Source of the DNA: a virus
Direction: 5' to 3' (one strand)
IMG/VR virus record: IMGVR_UViG_3300020009_000011
Location: 1-20,098 of that record
DNA length: 20,098 bases
Below are positions 4,911-10,135 of the stretch, piece by piece. Each line of letters starts with the position of its first letter. Positions within the stretch are counted from its first letter, which is position 1. Position numbers and translations under genes: made by a program. The notes under the pieces are model-generated. The model saw nothing but the letters and a program-made list of their open reading frames with translations. It did not search any database and was not told the DNA's origin.

Positions 4911-5344
4911 TTAACTTTACATTAATGGACATTATAAAAAAGGCTATGCTGGATGCGATGAGTAAATCTTATGGAATTATTTCATACGCAGCAGAAGCAG
5001 TTGGGATAAGCAGACAGACACATTATAACTGGATGAAGGAAGATCCAGAATATGCTTTGGCTATTGAGAATGTAAATGAAGCTGCTATTGATTTTGTTGA
5101 AGGTAAGTTACGTGAAAGAATTAATGGAGTAACTATTGGAAAGATACAGGATGGCGAGTTAGTTACGTATGAACAACCACCTTCAGATACTGCAATAATT
5201 TTCTACTTGAAAACTAAAGCAAAGAAACGTGGTTACGTCGAACGTACCGAAGTTTCACCAGTAGATCCAGACGGTAACGCAGTCCAACCTATCATAAACA
5301 TAAACGTAATCAGAACGAAGAAAGAAATTGATGATTCGTTGTAA
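4907..5344 (+). CDS. Terminase small subunit-like HTH protein
   Basis: A 145-residue protein, or 139 residues if the ATG at 4925 is the true start; the GTG at 4907 gives a 4-base GTGA overlap with the upstream stop. Residues 20-45 form a helix-turn-helix (YAAEAVGISRQTHYNWMKED). Then comes a helical region, and PPSDTAIIFYLKTKAKKRGYVER (about 90-114), which is typical of small-terminase or phBC6A51-type phage proteins. Such proteins recognise phage DNA and bring it to the large terminase for packaging. The large terminase here is about 4.8 kb away, which is unusual. A different HTH regulator is the main alternative. Confidence 0.72.
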   Translation: MINFTLMDIIKKAMLDAMSKSYGIISYAAEAVGISRQTHYNWMKEDPEYALAIENVNEAAIDFVEGKLRERINGVTIGKIQDGELVTYEQPPSDTAIIFYLKTKAKKRGYVERTEVSPVDPDGNAVQPIININVIRTKKEIDDSL

Positions 5345-5386
5345 CTTGTTTTCATAGATAAGGTTTAATGGTTTTTTGATAAGTAC

Positions 5387-5412
5387 AGTCCTGGAGTTTC
5401 TACTCTGGGACT
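5387..5412 (+). terminator. TTTCTA-loop hairpin 1
   Basis: A 10-bp stem (5387-5396 with 5403-5412) that includes two tandem G-T pairs, closed by the loop TTTCTA. It is followed by TATTGTAA, a weak U-rich tail. It lies 42 bases after the small terminase stop, so it could end the upstream transcript. Confidence 0.55.
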
Positions 5413-5426
5413 TATTGTAAATAAGA

Positions 5427-5448
5427 AAGCCGGGTAGAAACCCAGCTC
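5427..5448 (-). terminator. TTTCTA-loop hairpin 2 (reverse strand)
   Basis: On the - strand this is an 8-bp stem GAGCTGGG/CCCGGCTT around loop TTTCTA, followed by TCTTATTT. Two pairs are G-U on the - strand but A-C mismatches on +, so the element looks shaped for - strand RNA. It forms a back-to-back pair with hairpin 1. Confidence 0.45.
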
Positions 5449-5486
5449 GTTATCAAAACTAATTGTTATCCTATGAAAACAGACCT

Positions 5487-5502
5487 AACTGTAGAAACAG
5501 TC
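5487..5502 (-). terminator. TTTCTA-loop hairpin 3 (reverse strand, short)
   Basis: On the - strand GACTG and CAGTT pair (5 bp, outer pair G-U) around loop TTTCTA, followed by AGGTCTGTTTTC. The stem is short and the call is supported mainly by the shared loop and by the same bias toward the - strand as hairpin 2. Confidence 0.35.
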
Positions 5503-5591
5503 TGATCGAGAAATTGACTAGTGAATGGCTAAGATAAAAATAAATTTCATAATATCAGAATAATTATTTAGCTTAGTATTTCTAAACTGCA

Positions 5592-5691
5592 TTGTGCCGC
5601 AGATGATCAAAAAATATAACGATAATAAAGGTAGTACATTAACTGCGTCTCCATCTTCGGGTGACGGCGGCACAACTTTTAGTGTACTACC
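5592..5691 (+). ncRNA. Predicted pseudoknotted RNA element
   Basis: Two long pairings cross each other. Segment A TTGTGCCGC (5592-5600) pairs with GCGGCACAA (5667-5675). Segment B (5630-5640, GGTAGTACATT) pairs with 5681-5691 (10 Watson-Crick pairs and one G-U). Between B and A' lies a hairpin (5646-5666) with CGT/ACG, a 3-base bulge, and CATC/GGTG closed by a cUUCGg tetraloop; it abuts A' and could stack on it. The G-U pairs favour + strand RNA. A 34-codon ORF (5603-5707) spans almost the same bases, so the region could be a peptide gene, a leader controlling the gene at 5714, or a separate small RNA. Confidence 0.5.
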
Positions 5692-5707
5692 CTTACTATT
5701 AAAATAA
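5603..5707 (+). CDS. Possible 34-residue peptide inside the structured element
   Basis: The ATG at 5603 opens a frame for MIKKYNDNKGSTLTASPSSG and 14 further residues ending FSVLPLLLK. No recognisable domain or Shine-Dalgarno sequence is present. It ends 6 bases before the next start, which is in keeping with the packed + strand layout, but its sequence is constrained by the pseudoknot pairings, so the open frame may be chance. Confidence 0.3.
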   Translation: MIKKYNDNKGSTLTASPSSGDGGTTFSVLPLLLK

Positions 5708-5713
5708 TTTATT

Positions 5714-5902
5714 ATGACAGAAGCAATCAAGAAAACCAGAACGCCTAAGAATGCAGACAGTATTACCAAGGGCGCATTAGCGTTACCGTTGCAGGAGCGT
5801 GTTGATCTTTGGAGAACATTACAAGATTCAATTATGGCCGAAGTAGAAACTATCAGAGCTGCTTATGAGCACGCTGAAAAGATTGCTAATGGTAACAATT
5901 AG
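5714..5902 (+). CDS. Small hypothetical protein
   Basis: A 62-residue protein I do not recognise. The N terminus is basic (IKKTRTPKN); the rest is predicted helical, with LPLQERVDLWRTLQDSIMAEVE followed by an Ala/Glu-rich helix. The stretch LPLQERVDLWRTLQDSI loosely recalls the short addiction-module antitoxin family, but no toxin gene is adjacent, so I do not call it that. It is flanked by the structured element upstream and a TTTCTA hairpin downstream, so it may form its own small transcript unit. Confidence 0.55.
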   Translation: MTEAIKKTRTPKNADSITKGALALPLQERVDLWRTLQDSIMAEVETIRAAYEHAEKIANGNN

Positions 5903-5931
5903 TTCAATAGGAATTGGAATAACCAAGAAAC

Positions 5932-5953
5932 GGCTGGCGTTTCTACGCTGGCC
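5932..5953 (+). terminator. TTTCTA-loop hairpin 4; intrinsic terminator candidate
   Basis: An 8-bp GC-rich stem GGCTGGCG/CGCTGGCC with two tandem G-U pairs and loop TTTCTA, followed by TCAATTTTAAAA. It lies 29 bases after the stop at 5902. A competing hairpin, GAAACG (5927-5932) with CGTTTC (5938-5943), would use the same bases, which could allow a switch. Confidence 0.6.
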
Positions 5954-5975
5954 TCAATTTTAAAAAACTTATAAC

Positions 5976-6293
5976 ATGAAGATCCATATTTATCATCATA
6001 TTGTTCAGGACGACAACTGCTATGAGTTGGACATAAAACAGTCTCTAAATTCAATTTTTAATATTCTAAAACAAATCCAAATGGAACAATCAGAATTAGC
6101 GCAACAGTTGACAGCTTTAAAAGAACAGGCCGATAAGGCGAAAGCGGAGATCGTTGCTAAGTTAGCTGATCTTGAAGCAGCTCTTGAAGCAGCAGATGAC
6201 GTTACTCCTGAAGTTCAGGCAGCGTTTGATGCTCTTAAAACATCGGTACAGGGTATTGATGATCTTAACCCTGATGCAGAGCCAGAATCTTAA
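5976..6293 (+). CDS. Small coiled-coil phage protein
   Basis: A 105-residue acidic protein. The N-terminal 33 residues (MKIHIYHHIVQDDN...) lead into a long heptad-like helix from about residue 36 (MEQSELAQQLTALKEQADKA, then KLADLEAALEAA), and the tail reads VQGIDDLNPDAEPES. Proteins of this pattern occur in many phages as short conserved hypotheticals, often near structural genes, but I know no proven function. An internal ATG at residue 36 could give a shorter form. It is bracketed by hairpins on both sides. Confidence 0.7.
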   Translation: MKIHIYHHIVQDDNCYELDIKQSLNSIFNILKQIQMEQSELAQQLTALKEQADKAKAEIVAKLADLEAALEAADDVTPEVQAAFDALKTSVQGIDDLNPDAEPES

Positions 6294-6296
6294 CCG

Positions 6297-6320
6297 ATAG
6301 CCCTGAGTGATCGGGGCTAT
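6297..6320 (+). terminator. Hairpin after the coiled-coil gene
   Basis: A 9-bp stem ATAGCCCTG/CGGGGCTAT with one G-U pair and loop AGTGAT, 4 bases past the stop. No U-run follows. It has the same size as the TTTCTA hairpins but a different loop. Confidence 0.45.
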
Positions 6321-6359
6321 TAACATGAATTATGAAACATCATATAAACTTTCTTCTTA

Positions 6360-6372
6360 GGGCTCACAGCCC
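6360..6372. other. Short perfect hairpin GGGCT-CAC-AGCCC
   Basis: A 5-bp GC-rich stem with a 3-base loop in the non-coding stretch between 6294 and 6435. It could be a terminator or a binding site. No clear U-run is present on either strand. Confidence 0.3.
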
Positions 6373-6394
6373 AAAAGGGATAGGTGGATTTTAC

Positions 6395-6416
6395 CCCCTG
6401 AATTTCTATTCGGGGG
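6395..6416 (+). terminator. TTTCTA-loop hairpin 5; intrinsic terminator candidate
   Basis: An 8-bp stem CCCCTGAA/TTCGGGGG with one G-U pair and loop TTTCTA, followed by CTTCTTTAAAA. It ends 20 bases before the first lipoprotein gene, so it separates the small-gene region from the accessory operon. Confidence 0.6.
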
Positions 6417-6435
6417 CTTCTTTAAAACTTATGTT

Positions 6436-6923: not shown

Positions 6924-7021
6924 TTACAACTATCTTGATACTAACTGCGTTTAATACCGTCACAACTATATTGTTTATTGCGATAGCTATTGTTAAACAT
7001 GGTAAAGGAGATGAAGAATGA
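6920..7021 (+). CDS. 33-residue single-span membrane peptide
   Basis: ATG at 6920 overlaps the previous stop (ATGA) and the TGA at 7019-7021 overlaps the next start (ATGA). The product has one hydrophobic span over about residues 4-25 (ILILTAFNTVTTILFIAIAI) and a charged tail KHGKGDEE. The double 4-base overlap strongly suggests a real gene. It could be a holin-like or pinholin-like peptide, or a partner of the lipoproteins; the sequence does not decide. The following gene's Shine-Dalgarno sequence (AAAGGAG) lies in its end. Confidence 0.62.
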   Translation: MITTILILTAFNTVTTILFIAIAIVKHGKGDEE

Positions 7022-7665
7022 CGGTAGCCTACCCACTAAAATCACAATCAGATTACACCGAGTTACGATACTCGTTACGATCTATTGAAAGATTCTACCC
7101 ACGACCTACTGAAGTTTTAATCATAGGTGAAAAACTGCCAGACTGGATTACTAATGTAACTCTGATACGAGTTGAAGATATTACAAGCAGGAAGCAATTA
7201 ACGATTAAGTATAAAATATTAGCAGCTTTAGAATATACTAAGGAAATATTCTTTATGAACGATGACGTTTATCTACTTCAGCCACCGGATTACAAGTATC
7301 ATTATCATGGTGATCTTATTTCGGTAGGCGAAGCAGGAGCAAGACCGTTAAGGAATCAACTATTGAATATGGGACTACCTACTAAGAACTTCGACGGGCA
7401 TTACCCGCTGGTGTATAGACAAGACTTCATTCAAATCCTGGATAAGTTTGCACATGATGTTATTGTGAAGTCAGCGTATTGTAACTACTTACAGATCGAA
7501 GGTGAATATGTGCCAGATAATAAACTGATAACGCAGAAAAACCCTGAAGATATAAAAGGTTTCATTCATGGCAGGCCGTCATTCTCAACCGGGGCGCATA
7601 GTTTACATAGAACGTTACCGATACTACATGAATATTTTCCTAATAAATCGAGGTATGAAGTATGA
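7018..7665 (+). CDS. Glycosyltransferase-like protein (GT-A type, NDD motif)
   Basis: A 215-residue protein. The start is well supported: AAAGGAG lies 7-13 bases upstream. ELRYSLRSIERFYP (about 15-28), then EVLIIGEKLPDW, then EIFFMNDDVYLL with Asn81-Asp82-Asp83, form the nucleotide-sugar binding side of a GT-A fold; NDD would serve as the metal-binding DXD-like motif. The C-terminal half (FDGHYPLVY, FIHGRPSFSTGAH) is like Stealth or capsular-transfer type proteins, but the match is loose. It probably transfers a sugar or sugar phosphate to a surface glycan or virion protein. It overlaps the next glycosyltransferase by 4 bases. Confidence 0.65.
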   Translation: MTVAYPLKSQSDYTELRYSLRSIERFYPRPTEVLIIGEKLPDWITNVTLIRVEDITSRKQLTIKYKILAALEYTKEIFFMNDDVYLLQPPDYKYHYHGDLISVGEAGARPLRNQLLNMGLPTKNFDGHYPLVYRQDFIQILDKFAHDVIVKSAYCNYLQIEGEYVPDNKLITQKNPEDIKGFIHGRPSFSTGAHSLHRTLPILHEYFPNKSRYEV

Positions 7666-8885
7666 AGATCCTCGTCACCATAATAGTTTTCAACCGCTAT
7701 CACAACTTAGAAGCGTGGTTAAGGTATTGGAAGGAAGTAGACACAAGGTGTGAAGCTGAACTGGTAGTGATCCATAACGATAACGGTGAATCAGCTAAGT
7801 TTAAACAACTATGCGATGCTAATAACATCCGATACATAAGACGCAATAACATCGGATTTGATATAGGAGCCTTCCAAGATGTTTGCAGGGAACGATTACC
7901 TGGTTTCCCGGACTACGATTACCTGCTATGGATTACTGATGATACAGTTCCGATGGTAAAGGATTTTATCACTCCGTTTATTACTCAGATACAACAGCCA
8001 GGAGTAGGTATTTCATGTATGCAGATTTCTAAATCAGTAACGCCTCACGTTCGTACTACTGGATTCTGCATAGCTAAATCAACTGCAAATAGATTACAAT
8101 TTCCTGCTGACCCCGTAAGTACTAAAGCGCATTGTTATCACTTCGAGCATAGAGGCGGCAAGCAAATTATGACAAACCAGATTAGAGAAATGGGTTTATC
8201 TTGTGAGATGGTTGCACCCCCACAAGTATCACCGTTATGGGACACCGGTTACTGGAAGCGAATGGATAGGCAATCTGAGCATGATAGATTATTCAACCCT
8301 GATAAAGTATCAGGTGATAAAGTGACTTTTATTTGTACTATCTTTAATTCATACCCGCAAATAATATCTTCATTGTTACTTCAGACACATAAGAATTGGG
8401 AATTATATTTAATTCACGACGGGCCTGCGCCTGATTCTGTTAAGAGTTTAATACCTTCAGATGAGAGAATAAAGTTTATTGAATCAGTAGAAAGGAAAGG
8501 TAATTGGGGACATCATTTAAGACAGTGGGCGCTGCATGATTTTAAACTTGGTGATTACGTTGTAATAACCAATGCAGATAACTACCACGTGCCAGTGTTT
8601 ACAGAATATTTACTGAATGGATTTAAAAAGTCACATACCGCAGTAGCAACATACTGCGATTCTATGACTCATAGTTATAAAGCATGGCAAGTTATCCCGG
8701 TAAGTTTCAAACGTGGATTTATTGATTGTGCTGGTGTAATGGTAAAAAGTGAAATAGCTAAAGAGGTTGGTTGGAATGATACCGAAAATCATTCATCTGA
8801 TTGGACGTACTTTTCTGAGATAGCGGCAAAGTATTCTCCAAAAAACTTTATCCCAGTTAAGGGATGTTTGTTAGTACATAATTAA
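7662..8885 (+). CDS. Two-domain glycosyltransferase
   Basis: A 407-residue protein with two consecutive GT-A-like domains. Domain 1 (1 to about 220) starts MKILVTIIVFNRYHNLEAWL, carries NNIGFDIGAFQD, and has LLWITDDTVP as its DXD-like motif. Domain 2 (from about 225) has the family-2 pattern FICTIFNSYPQIISSLLLQT, ELYLIHDGP, RKGNWGHHLRQWAL, and VVITNADNYHVP as its DXD-like motif. Tandem catalytic domains suggest it adds two sugars or builds a short repeat. It has no signal peptide or membrane span, so it acts in the cytoplasm. The start is the ATG of an ATGA overlap, with GAGGT upstream. Confidence 0.82.
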   Translation: MKILVTIIVFNRYHNLEAWLRYWKEVDTRCEAELVVIHNDNGESAKFKQLCDANNIRYIRRNNIGFDIGAFQDVCRERLPGFPDYDYLLWITDDTVPMVKDFITPFITQIQQPGVGISCMQISKSVTPHVRTTGFCIAKSTANRLQFPADPVSTKAHCYHFEHRGGKQIMTNQIREMGLSCEMVAPPQVSPLWDTGYWKRMDRQSEHDRLFNPDKVSGDKVTFICTIFNSYPQIISSLLLQTHKNWELYLIHDGPAPDSVKSLIPSDERIKFIESVERKGNWGHHLRQWALHDFKLGDYVVITNADNYHVPVFTEYLLNGFKKSHTAVATYCDSMTHSYKAWQVIPVSFKRGFIDCAGVMVKSEIAKEVGWNDTENHSSDWTYFSEIAAKYSPKNFIPVKGCLLVHN

Positions 8886-8890
8886 ATTCT

Positions 8891-10135
8891 ATGATAGACA
8901 CCGAACAACTAATCAAAAACAAAGATTATAAGATTCTAACTGAATGCCGTTGCTGCGGATCAGATAGGTTAGCGAAATACCTGGATCTTGGTTTTTTACC
9001 GTTATCGAATAACCTTGCAGCGAGTACAATAGCTTCGTTTAACAAAGAGAAGTTTCCGTTACAAGTTTTATTTTGCGAAGAGTGTGCGTTATCACAGTTA
9101 TCAATTGTCGTGGATCCTTCGGTAATGTTCGGACATTATGTTTACCGCTCGTCTATCAGTAAAACTTATATCAACCATTGCCGGGAAATGGCTATTGAAC
9201 TAAAGCCGAGACTAACGAAAGATTCATTCATGATTGACATTGGTTCCAATGACGGCACGCTACTACGAGAGTTTAAAGAAGAAATAGGGTTGAAGATAAT
9301 GGGTATTGACCCGGCTGAGAACCTGGCAGCTATTTGCGATGCTGCTGGTATTCCTAACATGACTTACTTCTGGGGGCTAGGTACAGCTCGAAAGATCGTT
9401 AATACTTTTGGCTATGCTGATCTGATTACTGCTACGAATGTTTTTGCCCATTGTGATAATGTAAAGGAGTTTATAATCGCAGCTAAACACGCACTGAAGG
9501 ATAACGGGATATTAGTTTTGGAGTTCCCTTACCTGATCGACTTCATAGAGAATAACGAATTTGATACGATCTACTTCGAGCATCTTAGTTACTTCTCTAT
9601 TGCGCCGTTAGCCCGGCTATGTTACGAGTGCGATATGAATGTAATGTCAGTATCGAAGCAAGATATTCATGGCGGTACGGTACGGGTAACTATTGGAACT
9701 GGAGTTATTGATAAGTCGGTGTTTGATTTCATGGAGAGGGAAAAGGAATACGCCACTGCTTCGAAATATATGGATTGGTCAACGAAAGTTAATCATACGG
9801 TAAACGAATTAAAGTATCATTTATCTAAACTAAAATATGAAGGTAAAAAGATTGCTGCGTTTGCTGCTTCTGCAAAGGGCAATACGTTACTTAACTGCGC
9901 TAATATTACAGTCGGAACTATAAACTACATCGTTGACCAAACCCCTGAAAAGATCGGAAGATATTCACCTGGTACGGGCATTCCAATTGTAAGTATGGAT
10001 GATCTGATAAGAACACCACCTGATTATTTGTTGATATTGTCGTGGAACTTCTTTGAAGAGATACAAAGGAAGGTTCGTGATGCTGGTTATAAGGGGAAAT
10101 TTATTATACCGATACCAGAATTTAAAATAGTGTGA
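8891..10135 (+). CDS. Sugar C-methyltransferase (TylCIII / TcaB9 family)
   Basis: A 414-residue protein with all three parts of NDP-hexose C-methyltransferases. The N-terminal zinc site has Cys19, Cys22, Cys62 and Cys65. The SAM-binding core has motif I DIGSNDGTLL (116-125) and the family motif DTIYFEHLSYFS, which keeps the Tyr, Glu and His of the usual YHEH site but has Phe in place of the first His. The C-terminal domain (from about 320) binds the nucleotide sugar. Such enzymes methylate C3 of keto-deoxysugars. Next to two glycosyltransferases it most likely makes or alters a branched sugar for transfer to a glycan. It starts 5 bases after the previous stop and overlaps the terminase by 4 bases. 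Confidence 0.87.
   Translation: MIDTEQLIKNKDYKILTECRCCGSDRLAKYLDLGFLPLSNNLAASTIASFNKEKFPLQVLFCEECALSQLSIVVDPSVMFGHYVYRSSISKTYINHCREMAIELKPRLTKDSFMIDIGSNDGTLLREFKEEIGLKIMGIDPAENLAAICDAAGIPNMTYFWGLGTARKIVNTFGYADLITATNVFAHCDNVKEFIIAAKHALKDNGILVLEFPYLIDFIENNEFDTIYFEHLSYFSIAPLARLCYECDMNVMSVSKQDIHGGTVRVTIGTGVIDKSVFDFMEREKEYATASKYMDWSTKVNHTVNELKYHLSKLKYEGKKIAAFAASAKGNTLLNCANITVGTINYIVDQTPEKIGRYSPGTGIPIVSMDDLIRTPPDYLLILSWNFFEEIQRKVRDAGYKGKFIIPIPEFKIV

Follow-up and report, generated by a model that had tools for sequence, protein, structure and literature searches.

What might a tailed phage gain from several hairpins that differ in their stems and share one six-base loop, TTTCTA? The question is raised by the viral record IMGVR_UViG_3300020009_000011, of which the whole stretch of 20,098 bases that was analysed is called the window here. 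The window encodes a primase-helicase, small and large terminase subunits and tail-region genes. In the genome collection, its terminase is most closely related to those of Bacteroidota assemblies, and its large terminase subunit (TerL) is about 30% identical to those of the best named phages. Genes for a glycosyltransferase, a Stealth-like protein and a C-methyltransferase lie at 7018-10135, between the small and large terminase genes, which is an unusual site for sugar-modifying genes.

Hairpins and elements in the window

Four perfect stems enclose TTTCTA within 1 kb (Table 1), and they make up four of the five strong hexaloop hairpins of the window (stem of at least 8, at least 5 G-C). Dinucleotide shuffling of the window (200 replicates) yielded on average 0.175 strong hexaloop hairpins and none with a TTTCTA loop. 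The hexamer alone is not enriched (22 occurrences in the window versus 23.5 expected), and the signal therefore resides in the hairpin context. When the single strand is folded, the outer U-A pair closes and the apparent hexaloop becomes a UUCU tetraloop on a U-A pair; the hairpin at 5387-5412 has a folding z-score of -4.65. The sequence-only reading had listed five such hairpins. The four perfect ones stand, and the fifth, on the minus strand, is real but weak and is probably a decayed tandem copy. The same reading took the hairpins to be directional, which is borne out by the G-U pairs in the stems that set the strand. The complementarity that it saw between plus- and minus-strand loops is true, but is a trivial result of having one loop on two strands. 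A single large folded RNA at about 5344-5512 (z -4.4) was also considered and is accounted for by two opposite-orientation copies sharing UUUUCAUAG.

The hairpins are not free-standing. Each forms the 3' half of an element of about 60 nt, in which an unpaired block, usually with UUUUCAUA first and then some 15-20 subtype-specific bases, is followed by a 9-bp stem with a U-UUCU-A loop and by a U-rich tail. We built covariance models of the hairpin (R1) and of the full element (R2). The upstream block is present on the window hairpins too, and is best developed in element 2, the top-scoring copy, which is convergent with element 1; L293 has a near-identical copy of it, and a promoter search for element 2 gave no match above background. 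Elements 1 and 4 fit R2 more poorly than elements 2 and 3, and element 4 combines a strong hairpin with a full element that is marginal. By eye, the window copies have 5-6 T in the 8 nt after the stem. Element 1 is kept at the same place in L003, L008 and L009, and in the homologue of element 3 (L007:4706-4762) one stem pair is compensated, C-G to U-A.

Table 1. Positions of the elements and of other structures in the window, with covariance-model scores.
Feature	Position	Strand	Description	Model score
Element 1	5349-5418	+	Block UUUUCAUAGAUAAGG..., long spacer, 10-bp stem, TTTCTA loop (hairpin 5387-5412), T-rich tail	R2 38.4 bits, E 2.7e-5
Element 2	5419-5479	-	Block UUUUCAUAGGAUAACAAUUAGUUUUGAUAAC, stem GAGCUGGG, TTTCTA loop (hairpin 5427-5448), U-rich tail	R2 61.9 bits, E 1.7e-9
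Element 3	5902-5961	+	Block UUCAAUAGGAAUUGGAAUAACC, stem GGCUGGCG, TTTCTA loop (hairpin 5932-5953)	R2 53.6 bits, E 5.1e-8
Element 4	6352-6424	+	Weak upstream block, stem CCCCUGAA, TTTCTA loop (hairpin 6395-6416), tail CUUCUUU	R1 E 2.4e-6; R2 E 0.071
Degenerate TTTCTA hairpin	5487-5502	-	Just upstream of element 2; 5 bp; fold -9.7 kcal/mol, z -2.4	R1 10.8 bits, E 0.88
Terminator-like hairpin	6296-6326	+	Strong hairpin with a GUGA (GNRA) tetraloop, 3' of a 105-aa ORF	
Side structure	5593-5690	+	Two helices of 9 bp each, arranged A B A' B', apparent pseudoknot, unrelated to the TTTCTA elements	
ORF	5604-5708	+	34 aa/codons (MIKKYNDNKGSTLTASPSSGDGGTTFSVLPLLLK), overlapped by the apparent pseudoknot	

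Several other structures occur in the same region. The GUGA loop of the hairpin at 6296-6326 is also present in near relatives, on one stem. The apparent pseudoknot is built from the interleaved inverted repeats TTGTGCCGC...GGTAGTACA...GCGGCACAA...TGTACTACC; across six phages 108 of 108 cells are paired, with double changes at 7 pairs, all of which trace to the divergent relative L003 and are compensatory, in both helices. In the window and in L003, 38-44 bases separate the plus and minus elements, and comparison of L008 (3199-3795) with L003 (3539-3583) reveals an insert of about 0.6 kb between them in L008. It holds one whole ORF and a portion of another reading frame, and the pair of elements in L008 looks as if it flanked a cargo slot.

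An RNA motif under selection

Among 18 diverse copies, all but one of 162 base-pair cells are paired (99.4%), double changes are found at seven of the nine pairs, and the covariation score was reached by none of 500 shuffles. Shifting the partner by one base abolishes stem pairing in these copies, and pairing ends abruptly beyond the nine pairs. Close phage relatives carry the TTTCTA loop on at least seven different stems. Of 120 distinct copies, 89 have a UUUCUA loop, a count biased by a model that was built with UUUCUA, and the variants include UUUCCA, UUUUUA, UGUCUA and UUUUCA; G-U pairs account for 103 of 890 pairs, and the 8 nt after the stem contain a mean of 5.2 T.

The conserved unpaired block precedes nearly every stem in the cellular Bacteroidota loci. 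Of 51 TTTCTA hairpins, the majority identified independently of the block, 35 have CATA[AGT] 10-45 nt upstream, compared with 8% of random positions. The 95 + 35 aligned copies share a fixed loop and fall into four block subtypes, A (UUCUCAUAAGCAGUUAGUUUUGGUU), B (UUUUCAUAUGGCAAGCAAUCGUUAG), C (UUUUCAUAGGAUAUUGGAUUUUA) and D (UUUUCAUAGGGUACGGAUUAAAAAC). Class B copies (e.g. L183, L165, L155 and L160) have several degenerate GGCAAGCAATCGTTAGAGG repeats ahead of them, as if the RNA bore an array of binding or seed sites. A small ORF on the strand opposite to the element, starting ATGAAAA/ATGAGAAAA, was considered and rejected; the frames are short and unrelated between copies.

The element is an RNA motif under selection, with a strongly covarying stem and fixed loop and block subtypes; the sequence-only reading had proposed such a motif from the fixed loop and compensated stems. 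A DNA element, in which a REP/IS200-IS605-type or attC-like folded end would serve a transposase or integrase, is disfavoured and seems to us very improbable. Copies that are dispersed, directional and hairpin-bearing would suit such an element, as would the ORF-bearing insert between plus and minus copies in L008. However, the G-U pairs indicate RNA, the loop stays fixed while the stems are rewritten with compensation, and a promoter-like box (described below) and the T-rich tail fit a transcript. Unlike REP, IS200-IS605 or attC sequences, the elements have stems that differ from one another and covary with G-U pairs, and no flanking transposase or integrase gene or target-site pattern was seen in the contexts listed.

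Distribution, gene context and promoter-like boxes

The sequence-only reading had proposed a covariance-model search for further TTTCTA-loop hairpins, and it survived that search, which found copies in relatives. R1 matches occur in 48 of 61 genomes in the family of G045, versus 31 of 296 across the Bacteroidota. With R2, for which genome and copy counts are lower bounds, at least 31 of 41 genomes in this family have matches at E<=0.01 (1-20 copies each, mean 8.3 where present), and at least 8 of 296 sampled Bacteroidota genomes have matches at the stricter E<=0.001. Exact seed patterns were found in 19 (A), 25 (B), 1 (C) and 18 (window type, 17-mer) IMG/VR stretches. R2 confirms 35 elements in IMG/VR, one of them in the 47-kb relative 3300022910_000007; most window-type stretches are chance matches, since few are confirmed by R2. 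Prophages flanked by bacterial sequence may be among the element-bearing viral contigs. No TTTCTA hairpins were found in 0.98 Mb of distant phage relatives (TerL below 52% identity).

The elements form a multicopy family that occurs in one lineage of Bacteroidota as well as in phages. Because the elements are shared, the family of G045 is the presumed host of the phage; our guess is that it is the Chitinophagaceae. Given that the hairpins are the 3' ends of elements present at about 8 per genome in this family, the phage seems to possess copies of a bacterial family of small RNAs or terminators that has no Rfam entry. Rfam searches of the window and host loci, with a copy of the database in which a FopS model was unconfirmed, returned no matching family; Spot_42, SorY and STnc430 gave weak matches far under their gathering scores. 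No tRNA, tmRNA or known Rfam RNA overlaps the elements, and in open-access full text we found no described motif of such kind in these bacteria. The selected, directional, terminator-like motif of the sequence-only reading is retained, although that reading had missed both the upstream block and the membership in a lineage of presumed host bacteria.

The position of the elements relative to genes is terminator-like in part. Three window hairpins had been described as placed like terminators, and for two this is correct, as they lie directly 3' of genes; the third (+6395) comes after the terminator-like hairpin at 6296-6326. Element 1 starts 4 nt past the stop codon of the small terminase gene (TerS) and element 3 on the last base of the stop codon of a 62-aa ORF; likewise, 13 of 35 viral copies start 0-10 nt past a stop codon. 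Cellular copies come after genes whose translations resemble Hsp20 proteins and a glucosamine-6-phosphate deaminase.

Subtype C has a distinct upstream region. In about half of 19 copies, 7 nt separate the end of a -7-like box (CATCTTTG, TATTTTTA and similar) from the block, and a TTTG-like box at -33 is often found 19-20 nt upstream of the -7-like box. Scored against a sigma-ABfr-type promoter (TTTG-N19-TAnnTTTG), 12 of the 19 copies reach at least 8 of 10, versus 21% of background; the other subtypes are closer to background. Similar arrangements are found in phage L008, with TTTG-N19-TAACTTTA 3 nt before a minus-strand block, and in phage L015, with GTTG-N19-TATTTTTG 1 nt before the block. 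Transcription of subtype C would start just before UUUUCAU and give a predicted RNA of about 60-65 nt. Subtype C, with a Bacteroidota-type promoter at a fixed 7 nt upstream, resembles a small-RNA gene in its own right.

The most economical alternative is that the elements are plain intrinsic terminators, for which this lineage prefers a stable UUCU cap together with a constant run-up sequence and which have no action in trans. The stem, the U-rich tail and the position past stop codons fit, as does the location of many phage copies between co-directional genes. However, only 1 of 139 terminator-like hairpins in 260 kb of unselected G045 sequence has a TTTCTA loop, and a terminator has no need of a conserved block of about 25 nt or of four near-invariant subtypes common to genomes. 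The promoter-like box of subtype C lies just ahead of the block, an arrangement that is sensible only if a short RNA is the product. The near-invariant block and the promoter for a 60-nt RNA argue against plain termination as the whole story, and we consider it unlikely.

Proposed action and relation to known systems

The number of RRM_1 genes follows the number of elements across 41 genomes (rho 0.85, or 0.72 with genome size removed), and also among the element-bearing genomes (rho 0.72, or 0.46 after size correction), all values being uncorrected for shared ancestry. Element-free genomes have 0-2 RRM genes. As a control, cold-shock-domain genes have no such correlation with element number (rho -0.27). 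Within the family of G045, element-free genomes are generally richer in cold-shock-domain genes (up to 5) and poor in RRM genes, which hints at alternative RNA-binding repertoires.

The duplex energies of five seeds favour start regions over coding regions, and shuffled seeds did as well in 0/40, 0/40, 2/40, 3/40 and 0/40 cases. These results are one signal, as the common UUUUCAU core, complementary to AUGAAAA, drives the start-region preference. A search for long perfect mRNA targets of seeds A and C found that their 17-18-nt reverse complements match essentially only the elements themselves.

We propose, with a probability of roughly 55%, that the elements are terminator-ended small RNAs or 3'-UTR modules that are bound by RRM proteins, aimed at start codons and adopted by the phage. 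The hairpin would end transcription and leave a short RNA, either from a free-standing small-RNA gene or as the 3' end of an mRNA. An RRM-type RNA-binding protein would recognise the conserved loop and block, and the block could pair around start codons (AUGAAAA / AUGAGAAAA) and inhibit translation, like the FopS sRNAs of Bacteroides. The phage would use its 3-5 adopted copies as the 3' ends of its own genes, the minus-strand copy possibly being a small RNA, and its transcripts would thus join or compete in the host small-RNA network. The element family itself is well supported; we infer its action, that is, termination, stable short RNAs, RRM binding, start-codon repression and benefit to the phage. 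A broader version, possible although tentative, is that an unlisted RRM-dependent Bacteroidota sRNA regulon with a UUUCUA terminator loop and anti-start-codon seeds has been captured by tailed phages, with phage 3' ends acting as sRNAs or decoys that steer host translation during infection.

The correlation with RRM gene number would also suit a 3'-end module that works without base-pairing, in which an RRM protein binds UUUUCAU and the loop and protects or retires the transcript, as a stability or localisation tag. The repeated GGCAAGCAAUCGUUAGAGG-like units upstream of the element in class B RNAs resemble binding-site arrays. But within each subtype the variable half of the block is constant, and it changes from one subtype to the next, as would be expected of target pairing more than of a single protein site; the seeds also prefer start regions. 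We regard this module as improbable. Binding of the loop by a phage protein, suggested earlier, is less likely than binding by a host RRM protein. An RNA family whose copy number follows that of RRM proteins would also allow direct tests of what these proteins recognise in such bacteria, with the 60-nt element, its loop fixed and its stems exchangeable, as a ready probe.

Intrinsic (Rho-independent) terminators can have stable caps, such as the UUCG loops of T4 and E. coli. The elements resemble them in their stable, G-C-rich 9-bp stem, stable cap, U-rich tail and position after genes. They are unlike them in the attached conserved upstream block and in being a small minority of host terminator-like hairpins. 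The analogy that had been drawn with the UUCG terminator loops of T4 is weak because the loop, UUCU on U-A with the variants UUCC, UUUU and GUCU, lies outside the YNMG class (Y-N-(A/C)-G). In enterobacterial sRNAs, the Hfq-binding module consists of a U-rich stretch and a terminator. The elements are similar in having a single-stranded U-rich stretch adjoining a terminator hairpin, plus a U tail, and differ in that their candidate partner is an RRM_1 protein. To our knowledge, Bacteroidota are generally without Hfq, and their small-RNA systems are known almost solely from gut Bacteroides.

The closest known systems are the FopS family and GibS of Bacteroides thetaiotaomicron (PMC11697453, PMC7366714), with which the RRM-1 protein RbpB associates. 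The 14 paralogous FopS sRNAs consist of an unpaired 5' seed followed by a terminator and target susC mRNAs close to the start codon; RbpB binds them, and they were also noticed in a phage (PMC11697453). The elements are like them in being multicopy, with an unpaired 5' seed and a terminator hairpin, a likeness in architecture, and, in subtype C only, in having a sigma-ABfr-type promoter. Unlike FopS as described in the text considered (PMC11697453), the elements have a conserved UUUCUA loop and UUUUCAUA block, and the R2 model is silent in most of the phylum. Architecture matches, and a common origin with FopS could be argued from architecture at most. If another lineage of Bacteroidota has a multicopy RNA family that tracks RRM gene number and is carried by phages, the RbpB/FopS design would prove to be wider than described.
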